DNA from: Acidobacteriota bacterium
GTDB taxonomy: Bacteria > Acidobacteriota > Terriglobia > Acidiferrales > UBA7541
Length of the DNA: 62,703 nucleotides
Reading direction: 5' to 3'
NCBI GenBank assembly: GCA_003224085.1
Contig: QHYK01000055.1
Coordinates: 1 to 62,703, forward strand
Of the stretch, positions 2,314-61,218 are shown one piece after another; positions within the stretch are counted from its first letter, which is position 1; every line of letters begins with the position of its first letter. The notes under the pieces are model-generated. The model made no database searches and was not told where the DNA came from. It saw nothing but the letters and a program-made list of their open reading frames with translations. Both the position numbers and the translations under genes were made by a program.

Positions 2314-5300
2314 CTAAAAGTTGAACAGGCACTGCAAGTAGATCAGGCGATTTGCTGTCGAAGAAGAAAACGGACGGCCGGCCAATGCGTTCGATTGCAA
2401 ACGCACGGACGGGGGCGCGCTCAGATTGCCAAAGGGATTGGACACATTCACTATGTTAAAGACATTTCGCGCGTTGATGCTGAACGTCAAATTGTAATGG
2501 CCTTCCGAAGGATTCCCGCCGAACATGCCGCCACCATGTGGCGCCCGGCCAAATGTGCCTCCGCGCGGGCCGCCGCCGCCCCCGGGGGTTTCTTTCTTCT
2601 CGCCAAACCCGAAGGTCTTGCTAAACCGCAGGTTCAGCGTAAACCGCGCCGGGCCCGTCCCCTCGTCAATTGGAATTCCGATTTGCCCCGGCTTTACCTG
2701 TTGGTTGAAACAGCCATACACGGTGGATATCACTCCCGGACTGCCGCACGTGCCTAGCGTTGGGCGCGCATTGAACGTATTGATTCCGTACAAATCCTGG
2801 CCCGTCGTGATATTGAAAGGAGAACCGGATTGCGCGACCATGAACGGGCTCGCGCGCAGGCCCCAGGGCATGCTGATCGAGCCGCCAACGAATGCGCGAT
2901 GCCGCACATCGAACGATGCCCGGCCGTAGTCTTCTGCTATACCGCACGCCGGCAGGGTCGATGATTCGCAGGGGATCGATGGAATGTAGCCCGCGCCAGA
3001 GGTGTCGCTGTGCGCGGAGTTCAGCGTGTAATAACCCCACAATGAAAGTGTCGTTCCCACTTGCACGCGGCTGTTCAAGATGAGCTGGTTTTGTTTGAAG
3101 ATTCCGCCCGCTTGGTACTGGTAAATGATCGCGGGATTAAAGCCGGCAGGGGGAGGGGTGGCAACTGGTGGCGGTGGTGTGGCGTTCGTATAGAACTGAT
3201 GAACCCCGCGGGAATTGAGATAAGTAACGGAAAGATTCGCGGATTTGCTGAGCTGGCGCTCGACCGTCGCTCCCGCCTGCATGATGTACGGAGTCCGAAG
3301 GGCAGGATTGGGTATGTACACCACTTGGGGCTGCACGCCGCTTGGCGGCACCGGCTGCGGTTCATCGGGATCAAAAAACTGCGGGTTCTTCACAAGAAAT
3401 TGCTGTTGAGTCACTCCGTTTTGCAATTCCTGCTGCAAGACCAAGTCTGAACTAAAGCGGTCGTAAAAAATGCCGTAGCCCGCTCGCAAGACGGTCTTTG
3501 GCGACCTGTTATTTCCCGCGCCGCCCAGAGCCCAGGCGATGCCCACACGGGGCGCAAAATCGGCATGATCTCCTAAGTCGTTTTGCCTCTCGTAACGCAA
3601 GCCGGTGCTTAGCGTCACGTTCGGCCGGATGCGCCAATCATCCTGAACAAAGAGCGCGCCGTCAAACCACGTAACGTTCGCCAGCGCTGCTCCTGAAGGG
3701 CCGGAATTCAACACGTAATAACTCGCGCCACCCCCGTTGGCGATCCCTGCCAGTTGATTGGCCTCCGTATCTCCGGTCGCGATGGCCTGCAACATAATCT
3801 GATAAGCCTGAATCCCGGTTAGCTGCGGGCAGGTGTTCGGCGGATTCGGCACGTTACAGCCCGTCACTCTCGGATCGGGCCGCGGGCCAAAAACGTATTT
3901 GCTATTGAACTGCGCCGTCGACAAATAGTCATCTGTTGTGGCGCGCAACCTGCCGCCATACTTGATGGCATGCTTCCCCATGTTGAAATAGGTGATGTTC
4001 TGGAGCTCGTAGCGGTTCTGCGTATCAAGGTTCACCCCGCCGCTGCTCCCTCCGGTCGTGTAGGCCCCTTGAATCGAAATCGTTGGCTTCGGAAACAGAG
4101 GATTCTGATCACTCTCATAGTGTATGTATTGAAAGCGCGTTTCGTTGATGGCACGCGGCCCGAGCACCTGAGTATCCGTCATTTGAAACGTGTGTTCCGT
4201 ACCGAGCAGGTCAAAAGCCGCACTCGGCAACGTGAAGGAGTCGATCCCGTCGTCGTTCTCGTTGTTGCGCCAGTACTGGTAGCGTGCGGTCAGCGTGTTG
4301 CTGGGAGCGACTTGAAAATCGAAGCGCTGGTTTACTTCCGTGCGCGTGCGCGGATTAGGAAACGCGCCGCTGAACGTCGTGATTTGCAAAGTCGCGGGAT
4401 CCACATACGGCGTGTCCACTACGGACAGCTCATTGAGATTCCGGCGCTCGACATTGGTAAAGAACGACACTTTTTTCCCGAGCGCGCCGCCCAGATGCCC
4501 CTCGTACTGCGTCGAATAATAGTCTGGCGGCGGCCCCGCGCCTTCAAAAGGATTTTTCGAGTTGAAGGCCGACATGTTGCCCATCACCCAGAACTGCCCA
4601 TGCAGCTGGTCCGTTCCCGGCTTGGTTAAGACTTCGATCCGGCCATAGCCCAGTTTGTCGTACTCGGAAGAAAACGGATTCTGATTGATGCGGATTTCGC
4701 GGATGGAAGCCTTGGGTGGCAGTTGTCCGCCTGTGAACCCATCAATGTAGATTTGTCCGCCATTCGGCCCAGCCGATGGCCCTGCCAGCGCCTGCAATTC
4801 CGACTGCAGATCATCCGGGTCATCGGAGAGCGCCTCGAGGTCCTTGCCCTTCATGACCACTTCGCCGGCATTGTTCGCGGGATCGACGTCCACCTTCGTC
4901 GTCTCGTCGGTGACTTCGACTTTTTGCTCTTCCATGTGGATCATGAGGCTGATGTTGACCTGTTGCACTTGGTTCGCCGTGATCTGAACATTCTCCTGGG
5001 TGAAGAGGGCAAATCCTTTCGCCACCGCATTCAGCGCATAAACTCCAGGCGGAAGCGCCTTGAATTCGTAGATTCCTTCCTTGTTGCTCGTTGCGTCGTA
5101 GGACGCGCCGCGCGCATCGGTCAACCGGACGGAAGCTTTGGGAACTCCTGCACCGGAAGGGTCCGTCACCATGCCGGTCAAGCCGCCCGTCGGGCCTTTC
5201 GCTGGAACTGCCTGCGTTGCCTGGTTCGCTGCTTTGCCGGTGACCTCGACTTTTTCCGGCTCAACATGAACGGTCAAACTGACGTTCACTTGCTGCACTT

Positions 5301-49365: not shown

Positions 49366-50805
49366 TCATGAAGAGCTCGCATGAGGAGAGGATTGGGCGT
49401 GCGAACGGACGCGGATTTCGCCGCAACCTTTGCTGAGCGGGAAGATTTTGCCGGGATTAAGTGAACAGTTGGGATTGAAGGCATCGTGGACGCGGCGCAT
49501 GAGGTCGAAGTCAGCGTCGGAGAAAAGAAGCGGCATGAGCTCGGATTTCTCCATGCCGATGCCGTGCTCTCCCGTGAGCGCGCCGCCTACTTCGACGCAG
49601 TAGCGGATGATTTCTGCGGAGGCTTGCATGGCGCGCTCGAATTGTCCCTTGTCGCGCGGATCATAGAGAACAATGGGATGAAGGTTGCCGTCGCCAGCGT
49701 GGAAAATATTGCAAATGTCAAAGCCGTACCGCGCGCCGACTTCCCGGATGTGGCGAAGCGTTTGCGGAAGCTTGGTGCGGGGAATGACGCCGTCAAGGAC
49801 GTAGTTGCTCGGAGCGAGACGGCCGAGCGCGCCGAAAGCGTTTTTGCGGCCTTTCCACAGGAGTTCGCGCTCTGCATTATCTCGAGCGAGGCGGACTTCC
49901 CGGGCGTGATGAATGTTGCAAACTTCGGTGATGGCGGCGGCCTGGGCAGCAACGGCTTCGGCGAGGCCTTCGACTTCGAGGAGAAGGACGGCGGCGCTGT
50001 CGCGCGGGAAGCCCGCGTGGACGAAGTCTTCGACGACGCGGAGCGTCCAGCCGTCGAGCATTTCGCAGGCCGCAGGAATGATGGCGCGGGCGGTGACGTC
50101 CACGACGGTTTCGGCGGCATCATCCACAGAATCGAAAACAGCTAGAAGCGTTTTGACGGCTTCTGGCCTGGGGGAAAGCTTGACGGTGATTTCGGTGACG
50201 AGGGCAAGCGTTCCTTCCGACCCCACCAACAGGCCGGTTAGATCGTAGCCGAGAGCGTCGCCTTGCGCGCTGCCGACGCGAACGATTTCGCCGTCGGGGA
50301 GGACGAGTTCGAGAGCCGTGACGTGATTGGTTGTGACGCCGTAGGCTAGCGTGTGCGGGCCACCGGCGTTTTCCGCGACGTTGCCGCCAATGGTGCAGGA
50401 TTTTTGGCTGGAAGGATCAGGCGCGAAATAGAGGCCGTAAGGCTCGGCGGCAAGCGTTAGATCGTAATTGACGACGCCAGGCTGGACAACCGCGCGCTGA
50501 TTTTCGGGGTCGATGGAGAGAATGCGGTTCATGCGTGCAAAAACAATCATCACGCCGCCAGTACGGGCGAGCGCCCCGCCGGAGAGGCCCGTGCCGGCGC
50601 CGCGGCCAACGATTGGAACGATGTGCTTAGCGGCAAGTTTGACAATTTGTGAGACCTCTTGCGTGGTGGTGGGAAAGACAACCATGTCGGGGCGGCCTTT
50701 TTCGACCGAGCCATCGTATTCGTACAGGAGAACATCTTCTGGCTGAAAAAGGACAGAGGATGAGCCGAGAAGTTTTTCGAGGTCGCGAAGAAGGCCAGAA
50801 TGCAT
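49366..50805 (-). CDS. glcD: FAD-linked oxidase, glycolate oxidase subunit GlcD
   Basis: 479 residues. The FAD domain has VFPTTTQEVSQIVKLA, PIVGRGAGTGLSGGAL, QPGVVNYDLTLAAEPYGLYF and LLVGSEGTLALVTEITVKL. The substrate domain ends with FHAGDGNLHPIVLYD and GALTGEHGIGMEK, which includes the catalytic histidine region. D-lactate dehydrogenase is a close relative, but the neighbouring glcE, hydroxyacid dehydrogenase and glycerate kinase support glycolate. It is divergent from the dehydrogenase gene across 124 bases. Confidence 0.9.
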   Translation of the reverse strand: MHSGLLRDLEKLLGSSSVLFQPEDVLLYEYDGSVEKGRPDMVVFPTTTQEVSQIVKLAAKHIVPIVGRGAGTGLSGGALARTGGVMIVFARMNRILSIDPENQRAVVQPGVVNYDLTLAAEPYGLYFAPDPSSQKSCTIGGNVAENAGGPHTLAYGVTTNHVTALELVLPDGEIVRVGSAQGDALGYDLTGLLVGSEGTLALVTEITVKLSPRPEAVKTLLAVFDSVDDAAETVVDVTARAIIPAACEMLDGWTLRVVEDFVHAGFPRDSAAVLLLEVEGLAEAVAAQAAAITEVCNIHHAREVRLARDNAERELLWKGRKNAFGALGRLAPSNYVLDGVIPRTKLPQTLRHIREVGARYGFDICNIFHAGDGNLHPIVLYDPRDKGQFERAMQASAEIIRYCVEVGGALTGEHGIGMEKSELMPLLFSDADFDLMRRVHDAFNPNCSLNPGKIFPLSKGCGEIRVRSHAQSSPHASSS

Positions 50806-50833
50806 AAGAAAGCCGCCCTGGAGAGGCTCCTTG

Positions 50834-50843
50834 CACTATAGTG
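50834..50843. promoter_or_regulatory. Palindrome in the glcD/hydroxyacid dehydrogenase divergent promoter region
   Basis: CACTATAGTG is a perfect ten-base palindrome 29 bases upstream of the glcD start codon, in the only space that can hold the promoters of both operons. It could be an operator, but ten bases can occur by chance and no regulator is nearby. Confidence 0.25.
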
Positions 50844-50929
50844 AGATTTCCGGGGGTCGCGCAACGTCAAGTTACACTTCAGGGAAGCGAGTATGTTAGT
50901 GTGAAGGCCCCCAGCCTTGCTGAGGACCA

Positions 50930-51907
50930 ATGGCCAAACCGAGGGTGCTAGCGACACACCGATTGTTTGAAGCGGCAAGGCAAATCCTGCAGGAGAGCTG
51001 CGACGTGGAGTACTGGGAGAGGCCCGAGCGGCCGCCGCGAGAGGAAATGCTGGAGCGCGTGAAGGATAAGGAGGGCTTGATCTGCCTGCTAACGGAAAAA
51101 GTGGACGACGAGTTGTTGCGGGCGGGGCCAAAACTACGGATGGCGGCGAACATAGCGGTAGGCTTTGACAATATTGACGTGGCGGCGTGCACAAAACGCG
51201 GAGTGGTAGCGGCGAACACTCCGGGCGTGCTGGACGAGACGACGGCGGATTTTGCTTGGACGCTGCTGATGGCCGTGGCGCGCCGGCTGGTGGAGGGTGA
51301 TGCGCTGGCGCGCTCGGGAAACTGGAAGGGATGGGATCTGGACCAGCTAGTGGGCACGGACGTGTGGGGAAAAACGCTGGGGATCGTGGGATTCGGACGG
51401 ATTGGGAAAGCGATGGCGCGGCGGGCCAGTGGCTTTCAGCTGAAGGTGATTTACACGGACGCAGTGCGGGCGACGCCGGAAGCCGAGAAAGAGCTACGAG
51501 CGGAGTTCCGAGAGATGAATGCATTGCTGGCGGAGTCGGACTTCATCAGCTTGCACACGCCACTGCTGCCGGAGACGCGCGGGCTGTTTAATGAGGAGAA
51601 ATTCGGGCGGATGAAGCGCACGGCGTTTTTGATCAACACGTCGCGCGGGCCGGTCGTGGACGAAGCTGCGCTGGCGGCGGCGCTGGAAAGCGGGAAGATC
51701 GCGGGCGCGGCGCTCGACGTGTTTGAGAAAGAGCCAGCCATTCATCCCGGCCTGAAGCGGCCAAACGTGGTGCTGGCGCCGCACATTGCTTCGGCTTCGC
51801 TGGAGACGCGGACGAAGATGGCGTGCATGGCCGCGGAAAACCTGGTTGCGCTGTTGCAAGGGCGGCGTCCTGTAAACGTTTTGAATCCAGAGGTATTGAA
51901 AGGGTAG
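50930..51907 (+). CDS. D-isomer specific 2-hydroxyacid dehydrogenase (glyoxylate/hydroxypyruvate reductase)
   Basis: 325 residues. The NAD(P) site GIVGFGRIGKAMARRA, the VGFDNIDVAACTKRGVVAAN segment, the catalytic arginine in INTSRGPVVDE, the glutamate in DVFEKEP and the histidine in APHIASAS are all present. It is close to GhrB-type glyoxylate reductases, which reduce glyoxylate to glycolate or hydroxypyruvate to glycerate. It lies 25 bases before the glycerate kinase gene, which favours the hydroxypyruvate reaction. Confidence 0.92.
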   Translation: MAKPRVLATHRLFEAARQILQESCDVEYWERPERPPREEMLERVKDKEGLICLLTEKVDDELLRAGPKLRMAANIAVGFDNIDVAACTKRGVVAANTPGVLDETTADFAWTLLMAVARRLVEGDALARSGNWKGWDLDQLVGTDVWGKTLGIVGFGRIGKAMARRASGFQLKVIYTDAVRATPEAEKELRAEFREMNALLAESDFISLHTPLLPETRGLFNEEKFGRMKRTAFLINTSRGPVVDEAALAAALESGKIAGAALDVFEKEPAIHPGLKRPNVVLAPHIASASLETRTKMACMAAENLVALLQGRRPVNVLNPEVLKG

Positions 51908-51932
51908 ACGGAACCTTGGGGCCATCCCTCCT

Positions 51933-53246
51933 ATGGCGGATTTGAAACAACTCGCCCGCCAAATTTTCCACGAGACCATGGCCGCCATCGATATCCCTCG
52001 CACGATGCAGAGGAAACTGCAGCGGCGAGGCACGCGAATCGTGTGTGGAGAGAAGACGTTTGACCTGAAAGATTTCGGGAAAATACGAGTGGTGGGCGTG
52101 GGAAAGGCTGCTCATGCAATGGTGGAAGGGCTGGTGCAGACGCTTGCGCCGTTTGTGGGATTTGAGGGAATTGTTTCTGCACCGGCCCGTCCAAAGAGAG
52201 CCGTGCCAGGCTTGAAATACTTTGCCGCAGGGCATCCGGTGCCGAATGACGAAAGCTGGAAAGCGGCGGACGCCGTTCTCGGGTTGCTCAAGAAATGCGA
52301 TGAGAAGACGCTCGTGTTCTTTTTGCTGTCGGGTGGCGGGTCGGCGATGTTGGAACTGCCACTGGATCCGAGGCAAGCCCTGGAGGACGTCCAGCAATTG
52401 CACAAGACGCTGGTGACCTGCGGGGCGAGCATCGATGAAATGAATACCATTAGGAAGCATTTGTCTGCGGTGAAGGGCGGGCGGCTGGCGACGGCGGCTC
52501 CGGAAGCGACGAAAATCACACTGGCGGTTAGCGACGTCCCCATTGGAAAAGAGTCCGCGCTGGCTTCTGGACCGACGCTGCCCGATCCAACAACCGTTGC
52601 CGATGCGAAACGCGTGATCAAGGAATATTCGCTGCGCGAGAAGTTTTCGCTGGCTCTGCAGAAGTGGCTCGACGAAGGCAAGATTCCGGAGACGCCCAAG
52701 GCCGGCGATGCGGCGTTCCGGAAAGCCTACTTCTACCTGACCATGGGAATGGACGACCTCTTACATCCGGCCCACCACGCGGCGGAGGCGCTGGGATTCA
52801 TGACCTGTTGCGACAATTCGACCGATGACTGGCCTGTTGAAAAAGCGGCAGAAGCGCTACTTGGGCAACTGGAAGAGTTGCGTGCGACACATCGAGGTCA
52901 ACGTGTGGCGCTAATTGCGGATGGAGAGGTGAGTTCGCCCGTGACGGGGAACGGGATTGGGGGACGGAATTCGGCGTTCGTGCTGGCTTGCGTAGAAAAA
53001 ATCGCCGGAAAGAAAATGGCGGTGCTAAGCGCCGGGACTGACGGAATTGACGGCAACAGCTCCGGAGCCGGAGCGGTTGCGGACGGAGAAACGCTGCAGC
53101 GAGCGCGGGAGGCAGGACTTGATTCGAAAGAGTTTTCCCGGCGAAGCGACGCGTTCACGTTTTTTTCAAAGCTGGGGGATGCGATTTTGGCGGGACCGAC
53201 GGGAAACAATTTGCGGGATTTGCGAATACTGCTGGCAGATCGATAA
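51933..53246 (+). CDS. Glycerate 2-kinase (GckA/TtuD type, DUF4147)
   Basis: 437 residues, MOFRL-type glycerate kinase. It phosphorylates D-glycerate to 2-phosphoglycerate. Signatures are VVGVGKAAHAMVEGL near the start, YFAAGHPVPNDES, FFLLSGGGSAMLELP, EMNTIRKHLSAVKGGRLA, VSDVPIGKESALASGPT, and in the MOFRL end ALIADGEVSSPVTGNGIGGRN and SAGTDGIDGNSSGAGAVADG. Together with the dehydrogenase upstream and glcDE opposite it completes a route from glycolate into glycolysis. Confidence 0.94.
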   Translation: MADLKQLARQIFHETMAAIDIPRTMQRKLQRRGTRIVCGEKTFDLKDFGKIRVVGVGKAAHAMVEGLVQTLAPFVGFEGIVSAPARPKRAVPGLKYFAAGHPVPNDESWKAADAVLGLLKKCDEKTLVFFLLSGGGSAMLELPLDPRQALEDVQQLHKTLVTCGASIDEMNTIRKHLSAVKGGRLATAAPEATKITLAVSDVPIGKESALASGPTLPDPTTVADAKRVIKEYSLREKFSLALQKWLDEGKIPETPKAGDAAFRKAYFYLTMGMDDLLHPAHHAAEALGFMTCCDNSTDDWPVEKAAEALLGQLEELRATHRGQRVALIADGEVSSPVTGNGIGGRNSAFVLACVEKIAGKKMAVLSAGTDGIDGNSSGAGAVADGETLQRAREAGLDSKEFSRRSDAFTFFSKLGDAILAGPTGNNLRDLRILLADR

Positions 53247-58722: not shown

Positions 58723-59773
58723 TCAAACGACTTTGCGTAGCTTGGTGACTCTGCCCACTTCCACCCATTCGACAACAAAGATGTTGCCCTGATGATCGAA
58801 GCAAGCTCCGTGAGGACACAAGAAGCGGCCGGCGATGAATGTATCGCGAGCCTGTTCGCGAGCCTTGCGCCAGTCCTGTTGCGTTGAATAATCACCATTG
58901 CCCAGACTGGCCACCGCTTTGTTGGCACTGTCAAGAATCACGACCTTGCTCCACAGGTCCGGAATGACCACGTCGCCGTTGCGTTCGTCAAAGTGGCAAG
59001 GCATTTTCGTCGTGCCCAAAATAAAATCGATGTGCTTTCCGTCCAGGGTGAATCTTTGTAATCGCGCATTCGAGCGATCGGCAATTACGAGCACGGGAGG
59101 CTCGATGCGCGTGTCTACCCAAAGGCCGTGAGGGCAATCGAGCTGGCCGACGTCCTTTCCCAAGCCGCCAAAAGTGCGAAGGAACTGCGCTTTCTGGTTG
59201 TATTGGTTGATGTAACTGGAGCCGTAGCCGTCGGCAACATAGATGTCTCCATTGGGAGCGATGGCCACATTGGTTGGTTTGTAGCTCGGGGCCATCCCGT
59301 TCTTGCCTTGATAGGCCGGCGACTCAGCCGGGTAGCCGAGGGTGAAAACCTCTTCACCCTTTAGTGTGCGCTTTGTGACTATGCCGTGTTGAAAATCACA
59401 GAGATAGAGGAATTCTTCGCTACGCTCTTTGCGGATTGACAAGCCATGCGCTCCGCCTTTGAACTGCCCACCCCAAGAGCGCACGAACTTTCCGTCCCGG
59501 TCAAAAACAACAATCGTGTCCGGAGATTCGCTGGTGGAATGAACCGTGTGATGAATGTAGATATGGCCTTGCGAGTCTTCGCAGACCGCCGTGCGTGTTC
59601 CCGTATCGGATATTGGCAGGCAGCGTGCCCCAATCGTGGAGCGCCTCGTACTGATGTTCCCCTTCACCAAGAATCGGCGCGCGGCTGCCGGATTTGTTGG
59701 TTGCTCCGAGAAGGAGCGGCGCCACTCCGGCTGCGCCGGCGGTGGCGAGGAAGGTGCGTCGGGTGACTTTCAT
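58723..59773 (-). CDS. Peptidyl-hydroxyglycine alpha-amidating lyase-like (PAL-like) NHL beta-propeller, frameshifted
   Basis: The gene starts at the ATG at 59773 with a Tat signal (TRRTFLATAGAAG) and a mature start HQYEALHDWGTLP. Near 59585-59590 one extra G shifts the frame; the rest continues as EDSQGHIYIHHTVHSTSESP. A six-bladed NHL propeller follows with GAHGLSI, PTNVAIAPNGDIYVADGYGS, CPHGLWV, LVIADRSNARLQRF and CPHGACFDHQGNIFVVEW. Order and histidines match the PAL half of eukaryotic PAM, where three histidines bind zinc. The gene lies 50 bases behind a PHM-like gene. The shift may be a sequencing error. Confidence 0.75.
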
Positions 59774-59823
59774 GGACTCTAAACTCCTGTAGAAGAAAGA
59801 ACGAGAGCAAAGATGGCCGGAGT

Positions 59824-61203
59824 TTATTTTTGCGCCGTTACAGGTTTCTCCGTGACGAGTTGCGGGTCGGCAAATTGCAGCCAGAAACCCATCATTTCTT
59901 CGTCGCTGGGTTCGCCCCAACGAAGTGCCTTAGACGGATCGGGATTCAGCGGATTGTTCTTCGAGTTGTCGAAGTAGGCGACGGTCATTAGTTTAGTGCC
60001 TTTCGGCAACAAAAACTGCTTCTTTAAAAAATAGGTCTCCTGCCAGCGAAAATCGTAGTGCGGTACGTCGAGCAGAACCTCTTCGTGGCCGTCGGCGTAG
60101 ATTGCTTTGGTCATCATGCTTTTTCCGCGGAAGTGCATGTGCGCAGTATAAGCCACGGCCGTGACGTCTTTCGGAAGAATGAAGCAGGAGGTGACGCGAT
60201 GATTGGCGTCGTTCGGTGGAATCCGAAACATGTTGTTCCAAATTTCGTACTGCGCGACTTCGTGCTGCACCGGCTCCTTGGCAAATACAAGGCCGACGCT
60301 GGTGCGATCCTTCACGTCGAGTCCGTGATGATTGCTGTAGTGAACTTGAAATTGCAAATAGGCGCCAGCAGGAATGCGAAGCGCATATCCGGGAGGACGT
60401 ATCTCCGGCATATGACCGGGGAGGTAAATCGCTGGGACAATATTCAAATAGCCTGAAGAATGACCCGGGATTCCGCCGCCGTCGGGGGCGGAGCAGCCGT
60501 CGTCAATGACCGGCGCGTCCGGCCGGAGATGCAACACCTTTCCAGTGCGATAGTGATATTCGTCCACGCCGGCATTCTCTTTGGCGCGTTCCGCCAGGTG
60601 CTTGGCATATTCGGCCTGATCAATCACGGAAACAGTAGCGTGATGCACCACGCGGCGGTCGCCGGGAAGCACTTCACCTGCTTGAATCCACATGTCCTCG
60701 GTGAAATTCGTAGGAACGTGGATATATTCGTAATCGTCCTGAGCCTCCTTGGGCACAAGGAACTCGGGGATGGTGAAAACGACGTCTGGCTTGATATGCC
60801 AGCCGGCCTCAAAGACGGGGCCGGGAGGCAGGTCTTTCGGGTCGCCCATTTTCGTTCCGCCTTTTACCCACGCGTCGATTGTTGCGATGTCCGTGTCACT
60901 CAAGCGCGCGTCGTTCATAAATTCACCCACGTTGGGGTCTGCGTGCCAGGGCGGCATCTTGCGTTGGTCGACGTCCTGCTGAATCATGCGCGCAAAAGGC
61001 AAAACTTCTTCATAAGTCATAAGCGACATGGGCGCGACGTCGTTGGGCCGATGGCACACAACGCAGTTCTTATACAGGATTGGCGCAACGTCTTTGGTGT
61101 AGGTGATTTCCTTTTGGGGCGGTGGGGTTTGGTTTGCGGCTTCAAGCAAAATGCCACTGAATCCGGCAAAGCAAACGATTCCAACGATTCTTCGCAGACG
61201 CAT
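59824..61203 (-). CDS. Cytochrome c fused to a PHM-like copper type II monooxygenase domain
   Basis: 459 residues from the ATG at 61203 behind AGAGG (a TTG at 61218 is possible), with a signal peptide. The N-terminal domain has one heme site, CVVCH (47-51), with CHRPNDVAPMSL and a distal MPPWHADP. The second part carries the full ligand set of a peptidylglycine hydroxylase-type dicopper enzyme: VVHHATV (His187, His188), LQFQVHYSN (His288), AHMHFRG (His355, His357) and SDEEMMGF (Met437 or Met438). Spacing resembles PHM. The heme could supply electrons in place of ascorbate. The substrate is unknown; the PAL-like gene follows. Confidence 0.85.
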   Translation of the reverse strand: MRLRRIVGIVCFAGFSGILLEAANQTPPPQKEITYTKDVAPILYKNCVVCHRPNDVAPMSLMTYEEVLPFARMIQQDVDQRKMPPWHADPNVGEFMNDARLSDTDIATIDAWVKGGTKMGDPKDLPPGPVFEAGWHIKPDVVFTIPEFLVPKEAQDDYEYIHVPTNFTEDMWIQAGEVLPGDRRVVHHATVSVIDQAEYAKHLAERAKENAGVDEYHYRTGKVLHLRPDAPVIDDGCSAPDGGGIPGHSSGYLNIVPAIYLPGHMPEIRPPGYALRIPAGAYLQFQVHYSNHHGLDVKDRTSVGLVFAKEPVQHEVAQYEIWNNMFRIPPNDANHRVTSCFILPKDVTAVAYTAHMHFRGKSMMTKAIYADGHEEVLLDVPHYDFRWQETYFLKKQFLLPKGTKLMTVAYFDNSKNNPLNPDPSKALRWGEPSDEEMMGFWLQFADPQLVTEKPVTAQK

Positions 61204-61218
61204 AGGACCTCTTGTCAA

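Follow-up and report, generated by a model that had tools for sequence, protein, structure and literature searches.

The complement strand of a 62,703-nucleotide acidobacterial contig (QHYK01000055.1, assembly GCA_003224085.1; the whole stretch is hereafter called the window) carries a gene that is, by sequence and predicted fold, a fusion of a cytochrome c with a copper monooxygenase of the PHM type. It is followed by a gene for a six-bladed NHL propeller resembling PAL, an optional partner that is broken in the window. PHM and PAL are the two halves of peptidylglycine alpha-amidating monooxygenase (PAM), and an earlier note made from the window's letters had described the two genes as a bacterial counterpart of that enzyme. 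That description holds for both folds, both sets of metal ligands and a linkage that is optional. It does not hold for the substrate side, where Arg240 of PHM is replaced by Thr and Arg533 of PAL has no Arg counterpart, nor for an extra invariant His in the propeller, which is moreover broken in the assembly and lies apart from PHM in most loci looked at. The split propeller frame, the optional pairing and the differing substrate-side residues had all been missed. No report of a bacterial PHM-PAL pair or of a cytochrome c-PHM fusion was found in the open-licence literature among the matches listed, and the available portions of PMC5461114, PMC6919629, PMC12636437 and PMC10020429 contain nothing on a bacterial PHM-PAL pair.

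A cytochrome c fused to a PHM-type oxygenase

The features of the oxygenase gene are as follows; residue numbers count from the TTG codon at 61218, and conservation refers to 70 distinct homologues (28-92% identity to the window protein, planctomycete and Bacteroidota rows included).

59824..61203, minus strand: cytochrome c-PHM/DBM-type copper monooxygenase gene (open reading frame, Pfam, alignment and structure comparison)
61051..61065, minus strand: CVVCH heme c attachment motif, residues 52-56 (C52 and C55 in 68/68 and H56 in 69/69 covered rows of 70)
60640..60645, minus strand: His192-His193, counterpart of the rat PHM CuH ligands His107/His108 (70/70)
60340..60342, minus strand: His293, counterpart of rat His172 at CuH (70/70)
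60133..60141, minus strand: His360-Met-His362, counterpart of rat His242/His244 at CuM (69/69 covered rows of 70)
59893..59895, minus strand: Met442, counterpart of rat Met314 at CuM by SDEEM motif and position (65/65 covered rows of 70)

The open reading frame ends at 59824 and encodes 464 amino acids from the TTG at 61218 or 459 from the ATG at 61203, with an N-terminus that looks hydrophobic by eye. Pfam Cu2_monoox_C matched the window protein with 31.5 bits (cut-off 23) and scored 34.1 bits in the genome search, where this was the single PHM-like gene found in its own assembly (97% complete). The nearest relatives, at 87-92% identity, are from gp2 Acidobacteria, and the 36 related loci that come from named records divide into 30 acidobacterial (six of them labelled 'gp2'), two planctomycete and four Bacteroidota ones. 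At the front of the protein, the CxxCH motif and a distal Met (Met88, conserved in 70/70 homologues) form the pattern of a c-type cytochrome, with Met88 the putative axial heme ligand. The front heme domain proposed in the earlier note is supported by the conserved cysteines of this motif, though its Pfam match is weak.

The same is true of the copper ligands that had been read in the window. The available part of PMC6123673, which deals with the mechanism of PHM, gives His242, His244 and Met314 as copper ligands and H107A, H108A and H172A as CuH mutants. The ligand residues of the HH, HY and HMH motifs and the Met of SDEEM are invariant in a 24-row alignment and wherever covered in the 70 homologues, so that the window protein appears to hold the full set of five His and one Met. 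The equivalence of Met442 with Met314 rests on motif and position because the HMMER alignments stop short of this residue: the C-terminal profile matched only DBH (E 0.31), and that alignment ended before the Met. By the same positional match Asn316 and Tyr318, which we take to be the rat residues here, land on Gly444 and Trp446, from which nothing further is claimed. The Gln that precedes the HY motif (rat Q170) was kept in all 31 members of an orthologue set (distinct sequences of at least 60% identity, 23 duplicate loci having been removed by hand).

Structure comparison points to the same superfamily. An AlphaFold model of the oxygenase (pLDDT 82) had DBH and PHM as its top 31 Foldseek matches, and VIA-align, which covers only the folds listed here, gave Z 21.7 over 293 residues at 3.2 A for DBH (4zel_A) and Z 20.8 over 252 residues at 3.1 A for PHM (6ala_A). 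DBH was also the best PDB profile match (E 8.6e-8). The next fold followed at Z 9.0, but several of the rows at or below this value are PNGase F-type proteins, which according to the available part of PMC8812541 share one Pfam clan with PHM, so Z 9.0 is no unrelated background. The model thus has the predicted two-domain fold of the PHM/DBM superfamily. The window protein differs from PHM by the cytochrome c domain in front and by an identity of only ~16% across the structural match, and from DBH in having this cytochrome c while no DOMON match was found in the Pfam scan.

Two further observations concern this family. The class relatives G059 and G043 gave 40 and 22 oxygenase matches, respectively, where one protein may account for two matches. 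In a planctomycete locus, two oxygenase-related genes are divergently transcribed (L062:5305-7326 and L062:3086-5089), the former combining AhpC/TSA, a weak cytochrome-like and a weak copper-monooxygenase match (22.3 bits, cut-off 23) in one chain.

A PAL-like propeller in a broken frame

The second gene lies 50 bases from the first (59824 to 59773). Its features are listed with the numbering of the intact relative L034, and conservation is given over a 38-row alignment; the rat numbers of the zinc histidines are those that we take to be correct for rat PAL.

58723..59773, minus strand: PAL-like NHL propeller gene with a Tat-like start, split across two frames (open reading frames, Pfam, comparison with L034)
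59580..59600, minus strand: place of the frame change, one base extra relative to L034 (comparison with L034)
59591..59593, minus strand: fourth channel-type His, L034 position 61 (H in 36/36 readable rows; the window codon lies in the upstream frame)
59446..59448, minus strand: zinc-type His of blade 2, L034 H109, rat H585 (37/37 covered rows)
59224..59226, minus strand: catalytic-type Tyr, L034 Y183, rat Y654 (38/38)
59128..59130, minus strand: zinc-type His of blade 4, L034 H215, rat H690 (38/38)
59074..59076, minus strand: catalytic-type Arg, L034 R233, rat R706 (38/38)
58810..58812, minus strand: zinc-type His of blade 6, L034 H321, rat H786 (38/38)

The earlier note had placed an NHL gene here, and the spacing, the shared strand and the motifs DGYG, PHGL, ADR..ARLQRF and PHGA are confirmed. 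It is not one open frame, however: the start ATG at 59773 lies in the frame of open reading frame 59501-59920, whereas the remainder lies in that of 58723-59670. Pfam gave an NHL match of 36.6 bits and a TAT_signal match that, at 21 bits, stays below the cut-off of 22.7.

A single base near 59587 is the sole internal length difference between the window and L034 propellers. Codon differences between the two are mostly silent (20 silent and 9 changing before the break, 90 and 25 after it), and therefore the gene either was constrained up to a recent date or owes its break to an error of assembly. A real mutation and a slip in sequencing or assembly are equally likely, because in L034, the nearest relative, the oxygenase gene is itself split between two frames near the heme domain at about residue 61 (L034:3201-3452 and 3419-4645), perhaps through an assembly error. 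Programmed frameshifting is not preferred, since the intact relative has a single frame and no slippery sequence was seen by eye. The window belongs to a clade of five with L034, L057, L032 and L033 (support 84/79; 100/99 for the four without L057). The L034 propeller is intact. That of L057, whose oxygenase is identical to the one in G028, has lost its first ~140 codons and carries two TAG stops, and in L032 and L033 the propeller is absent between PHM and msrA. As assembled, the window genome has a broken propeller gene and an oxygenase that stands alone.

A model built from the intact L034 protein (pLDDT 79) matched PAL (3fvz) with Z 30.8 over 273 residues at 2.6 A. Rat PAL had the highest identity (23%) among the 50 rows shown, yet was tied in Z with fly Thin and TRIM NHL domains, and therefore the fold match is not specific to PAL. 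The folds that the earlier note wished to see in predicted structures are thus both there, with this qualification: a six-bladed NHL propeller like that of PAL (EC 4.3.2.5) is predicted, in a form shared with other NHL proteins, among whose structures PAL is placed in the available part of PMC6107167. By sequence the window propeller matches Thin and TRIM NHL domains better (E to 4.3e-17) than PAL (3.8e-8), although for the part of L034 ahead of the later repeats PAL was the best match, a weak one (E 0.0038). The ScyF-type NHL model (NCBIfam NF035926) matched with 79.4 bits, far below its cut-off of 350.

The three zinc-type His and the Tyr/Arg pair, described as a Tyr651/Arg703 dyad of human PAL in the available part of PMC10303134, are kept wherever covered in the alignment. 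An extra invariant His in blade 1 and a Cys in blade 5 set the propeller apart from PAL. His61, which aligns with a Ser of rat PAL in an ungapped match made by eye, opens the inner strand of blade 1 in the way that the zinc histidines open those of blades 2, 4 and 6, and from this register it probably faces the channel. Cys259 (blade 5) and Cys324 are invariant in 38/38 rows and could form a disulfide.

Substrate-side residues differ from both animal enzymes

In each protein one position argues against a peptide C terminus as substrate.

60145..60147, minus strand: Thr358 at the place of rat PHM Arg240 (ungapped HMMER alignment; T in 30/30 covered orthologues)
59545..59547, minus strand: Thr at L034 position 76, at the place of rat PAL Arg533 (ungapped match by eye)

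Arg240 of PHM acts at the carboxylate of the substrate, and Arg533 of PAL, in an HRGD stretch, matters for the glycine end of the peptide. Arg240 stands two residues before the HTH motif; human DBH has Gln (Gln410) here and the window protein Thr. Only one of 69 covered homologues has Arg at this position. The oxygenase therefore lacks the residue type expected of PHM proper (EC 1.14.17.3), and with Thr it also lacks the Gln of dopamine beta-monooxygenase; the available part of PMC3197665 covers the ligands of DBH and places Gln410 in the hydrogen-bond network of dopamine.

The HRGD stretch of rat PAL is replaced by an HHT motif in window-type propellers. When the rat stretch SGVALDSKNNLVIFHRGDH is set by eye without gaps on L034 HGVCEDSQGHIYIHHTVHS, Arg533 falls on Thr76; in the MAFFT register, which differs, a row of the RGD type is gapped and has its Arg at position 80. 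The exact register is thus uncertain, but whichever is used (Thr76 or position 80) there was no Arg in this stretch in any of the 37 covered propeller rows, and a PAL-type Arg533 appears to be missing. Other NHL proteins in the genome are C12 (33% identity) and three more in which a pattern search for RGD was negative, so that a canonical PAL elsewhere in the genome is still possible. Since both halves are without the Arg in question, a peptide C terminus is disfavoured as substrate. A neighbouring gene of another type was seen in L045, where an RGD-bearing NHL gene (L045:3334-5409) stands between the oxygenase and an HHT-type propeller and resembles rat PAL more (phmmer E 4.9e-25) than the window propeller does.

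Linkage of the two genes is real but optional

Downstream sequence was available for 30 of the orthologues, and a propeller on the same strand followed in 12 of them: the window (broken), L034, L057 (a remnant), L041, L042, L043, L038, L045, L046, L048, L051 and L101. The other 18 had no adjoining propeller. Their next genes belong to an FG-GAP/UnbV-ASPIC cluster (L035, L036, L037, L039), to a metallo-beta-lactamase-fold cluster (L047, L049, L054), each with one member scanned, to an HMBD (heavy-metal-binding) cluster directly after the oxygenase (L050:7398-8324 and L053:1783-2706, only the L050 member scanned), or to some other type. An HMBD cluster gene also stands after the propeller in L048 (8303-9208). 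No propeller was next door in any of 23 more distant oxygenases (38-48% identity), eight of which have <1.3 kb of downstream sequence.

The NHL family is present in 147 of 399 genomes of the class (E 1e-25), with one to four matches each, and pairing in 12/30 orthologues on the same strand is therefore beyond chance. On the oxygenase tree the linkage label needs eight changes, as few as in 34 of 500 shuffles. On the propeller tree, whose rows were partly picked for being linked, it needs two changes (0/500 shuffles as low): all 10 rows of one clade (100/99) are linked, as are the paired L048 and L078 (94/75), which stand beside an unlinked row. The conserved adjacency that the earlier note looked for accordingly holds through this clade and in the other pair, but most of the relatives inspected lack it. 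At the level of genomes, a propeller at ~E 1e-90 or better occurs in 16 of the 18 that have an orthologue (E up to 1e-170) vs 74 of the 381 that have none (Fisher 1.5e-9, kinship ignored, hand-copied lists); the two exceptions are G019, where no propeller was found at 1e-25, and G011, which has only a 34% relative. In a bifunctional PAM the halves are fused or always together, whereas here they are separate genes that adjoin in 12/30 cases.

Propellers away from the oxygenase and other neighbours

Four of the best 30 propeller loci in the 399 class genomes adjoin PHM; in the other 26 no PHM was found within ~1.5 kb or to the contig end. We searched 46 non-PHM propeller regions, up to ~5 kb on each side and less where contigs are short. 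PSD1-type and DUF1501 genes occurred in 15 of them in either orientation and none of the genes sought in 29. Part of this association may come from chance. Among seven members of one genus, four have a tight row of PSCyt/PSD1, DUF1501, propeller and PSCyt1/DUF2231 genes, a fifth, at the end of a contig, has the three leading genes, and the remaining two lack such a row. A row of this kind (PSCyt1/PSCyt2/PSD1, DUF1501, PAL-like NHL, PSCyt1/DUF2231) was seen at L128:849-8200, where adjoining reading frames touch or overlap, and also in L124, L127, L129 and L171.

PAL chemistry liberates glyoxylate, and in the window a FAD-linked (glycolate-oxidase-like) oxidase, a D-2-hydroxyacid dehydrogenase and a MOFRL glycerate-kinase-like gene lie at 49366-53246, ~5-9 kb away from the two genes. 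A search of 86 related loci (E 1e-15) found none of the three, although the stretches from close relatives end before that region, and we treat these genes as local background because of their absence from those loci.

Proposed function and alternatives

We consider it probable that the upstream gene encodes a dicopper monooxygenase of the PHM/DBM type that is fed by its cytochrome c and has an optional PAL-like metalloenzyme beside it, and that the system works outside the cytoplasm, probably on something other than glycine-extended peptides. The oxygenase would be exported, and its c-type heme domain would pass single electrons to the dicopper centre, with the cytochrome in the place of ascorbate as electron source. 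Outside the cytoplasm the copper site may then bind O2 and hydroxylate a small or polymeric substrate at a C-H bond. Where the downstream gene is intact, its exported six-bladed product would process what a cytochrome-linked oxidation yields, most likely by breaking a carbinolamide or hemiacetal formed by the hydroxylation. Both animal enzymes have an Arg that matters for the C-terminal glycine of a peptide, and since both are replaced here, such a glycine is probably not what the pair acts on.

Several points weigh against this proposal. The chemistry of the pair is deduced from sequence and models. The Pfam match to a heme domain (Haem_bd) is weak, at 20 bits under a cut-off of 27. Enzymes of broad specificity could hold a carboxylate through other residues, and Lys, which occurs in the Arg533 stretch of 11/37 covered propeller rows, could replace the Arg. 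A non-catalytic role of the propeller is also possible.

If the pair were instead a genuine two-gene PAM, the oxygenase would form alpha-hydroxyglycine peptides from which the propeller frees the amide and glyoxylate. Both folds and their metal ligands match the halves of PAM, gene order and strand recur in the 12 linked orthologues, the Tyr/Arg dyad is retained and genes that could handle glyoxylate lie nearby in the window. We nevertheless regard C-terminal amidation as disfavoured and this explanation as unlikely, given Thr for Arg240, the Arg533 stretch without Arg, a propeller that is broken, truncated or absent in 4/5 members of the window clade, and glyoxylate-type genes that do not recur in the related loci. 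A better, if still doubtful, case can be made for an oxygenase that acts alone beside a separate sensor, carrier or enzyme. The latter, often encoded near other cytochrome genes, would once have come to lie next to the oxygenase and would now be on its way to loss. Such a history would fit the 18/30 orthologues without an adjoining propeller, the alternative UnbV/ASPIC, metallo-beta-lactamase-fold and HMBD neighbours, and the decay or absence of the propeller in the window clade. It fits less well with the 10-row propeller clade that is wholly oxygenase-linked (though its rows were partly chosen as linked) and with the excess of propellers in genomes that have an orthologue, a comparison in which kinship is ignored.

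It is very improbable that the copper domain is a PHM-fold copper store, chaperone or electron carrier with no oxygenase activity. The HMBD neighbours of the L048, L050 and L053 genes and the redoxin fusion in planctomycete L062 are what such a role might lead one to expect, but both putative copper sites, Met ligand included, are kept wherever covered in homologues down to ~28% identity. The favoured proposal, a cytochrome-fed monooxygenase with an optional propeller, may tentatively be extended to a modular extracytoplasmic oxidation in which c-type cytochromes drive either the fused PHM-type oxygenase or a PSCyt/PSD1/DUF1501 module. The PAL-like propeller, with four channel His and no Arg533, would then finish the reaction on a non-peptide substrate in what would amount to a dealkylation pathway, assembled from the two folds that animals use in hormone amidation.

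PHM and PAL appear in the papers searched as an animal and algal pair for peptide amidation. In the window the two folds are encoded by separate genes of a bacterium, the copper oxygenase is fused to a heme protein, and the residues on the substrate side are altered. If the proposed electron path is true, this would be a PHM-type enzyme that is independent of ascorbate, and the optional linkage would offer a clean genetic test of a role of the pair other than peptide amidation.

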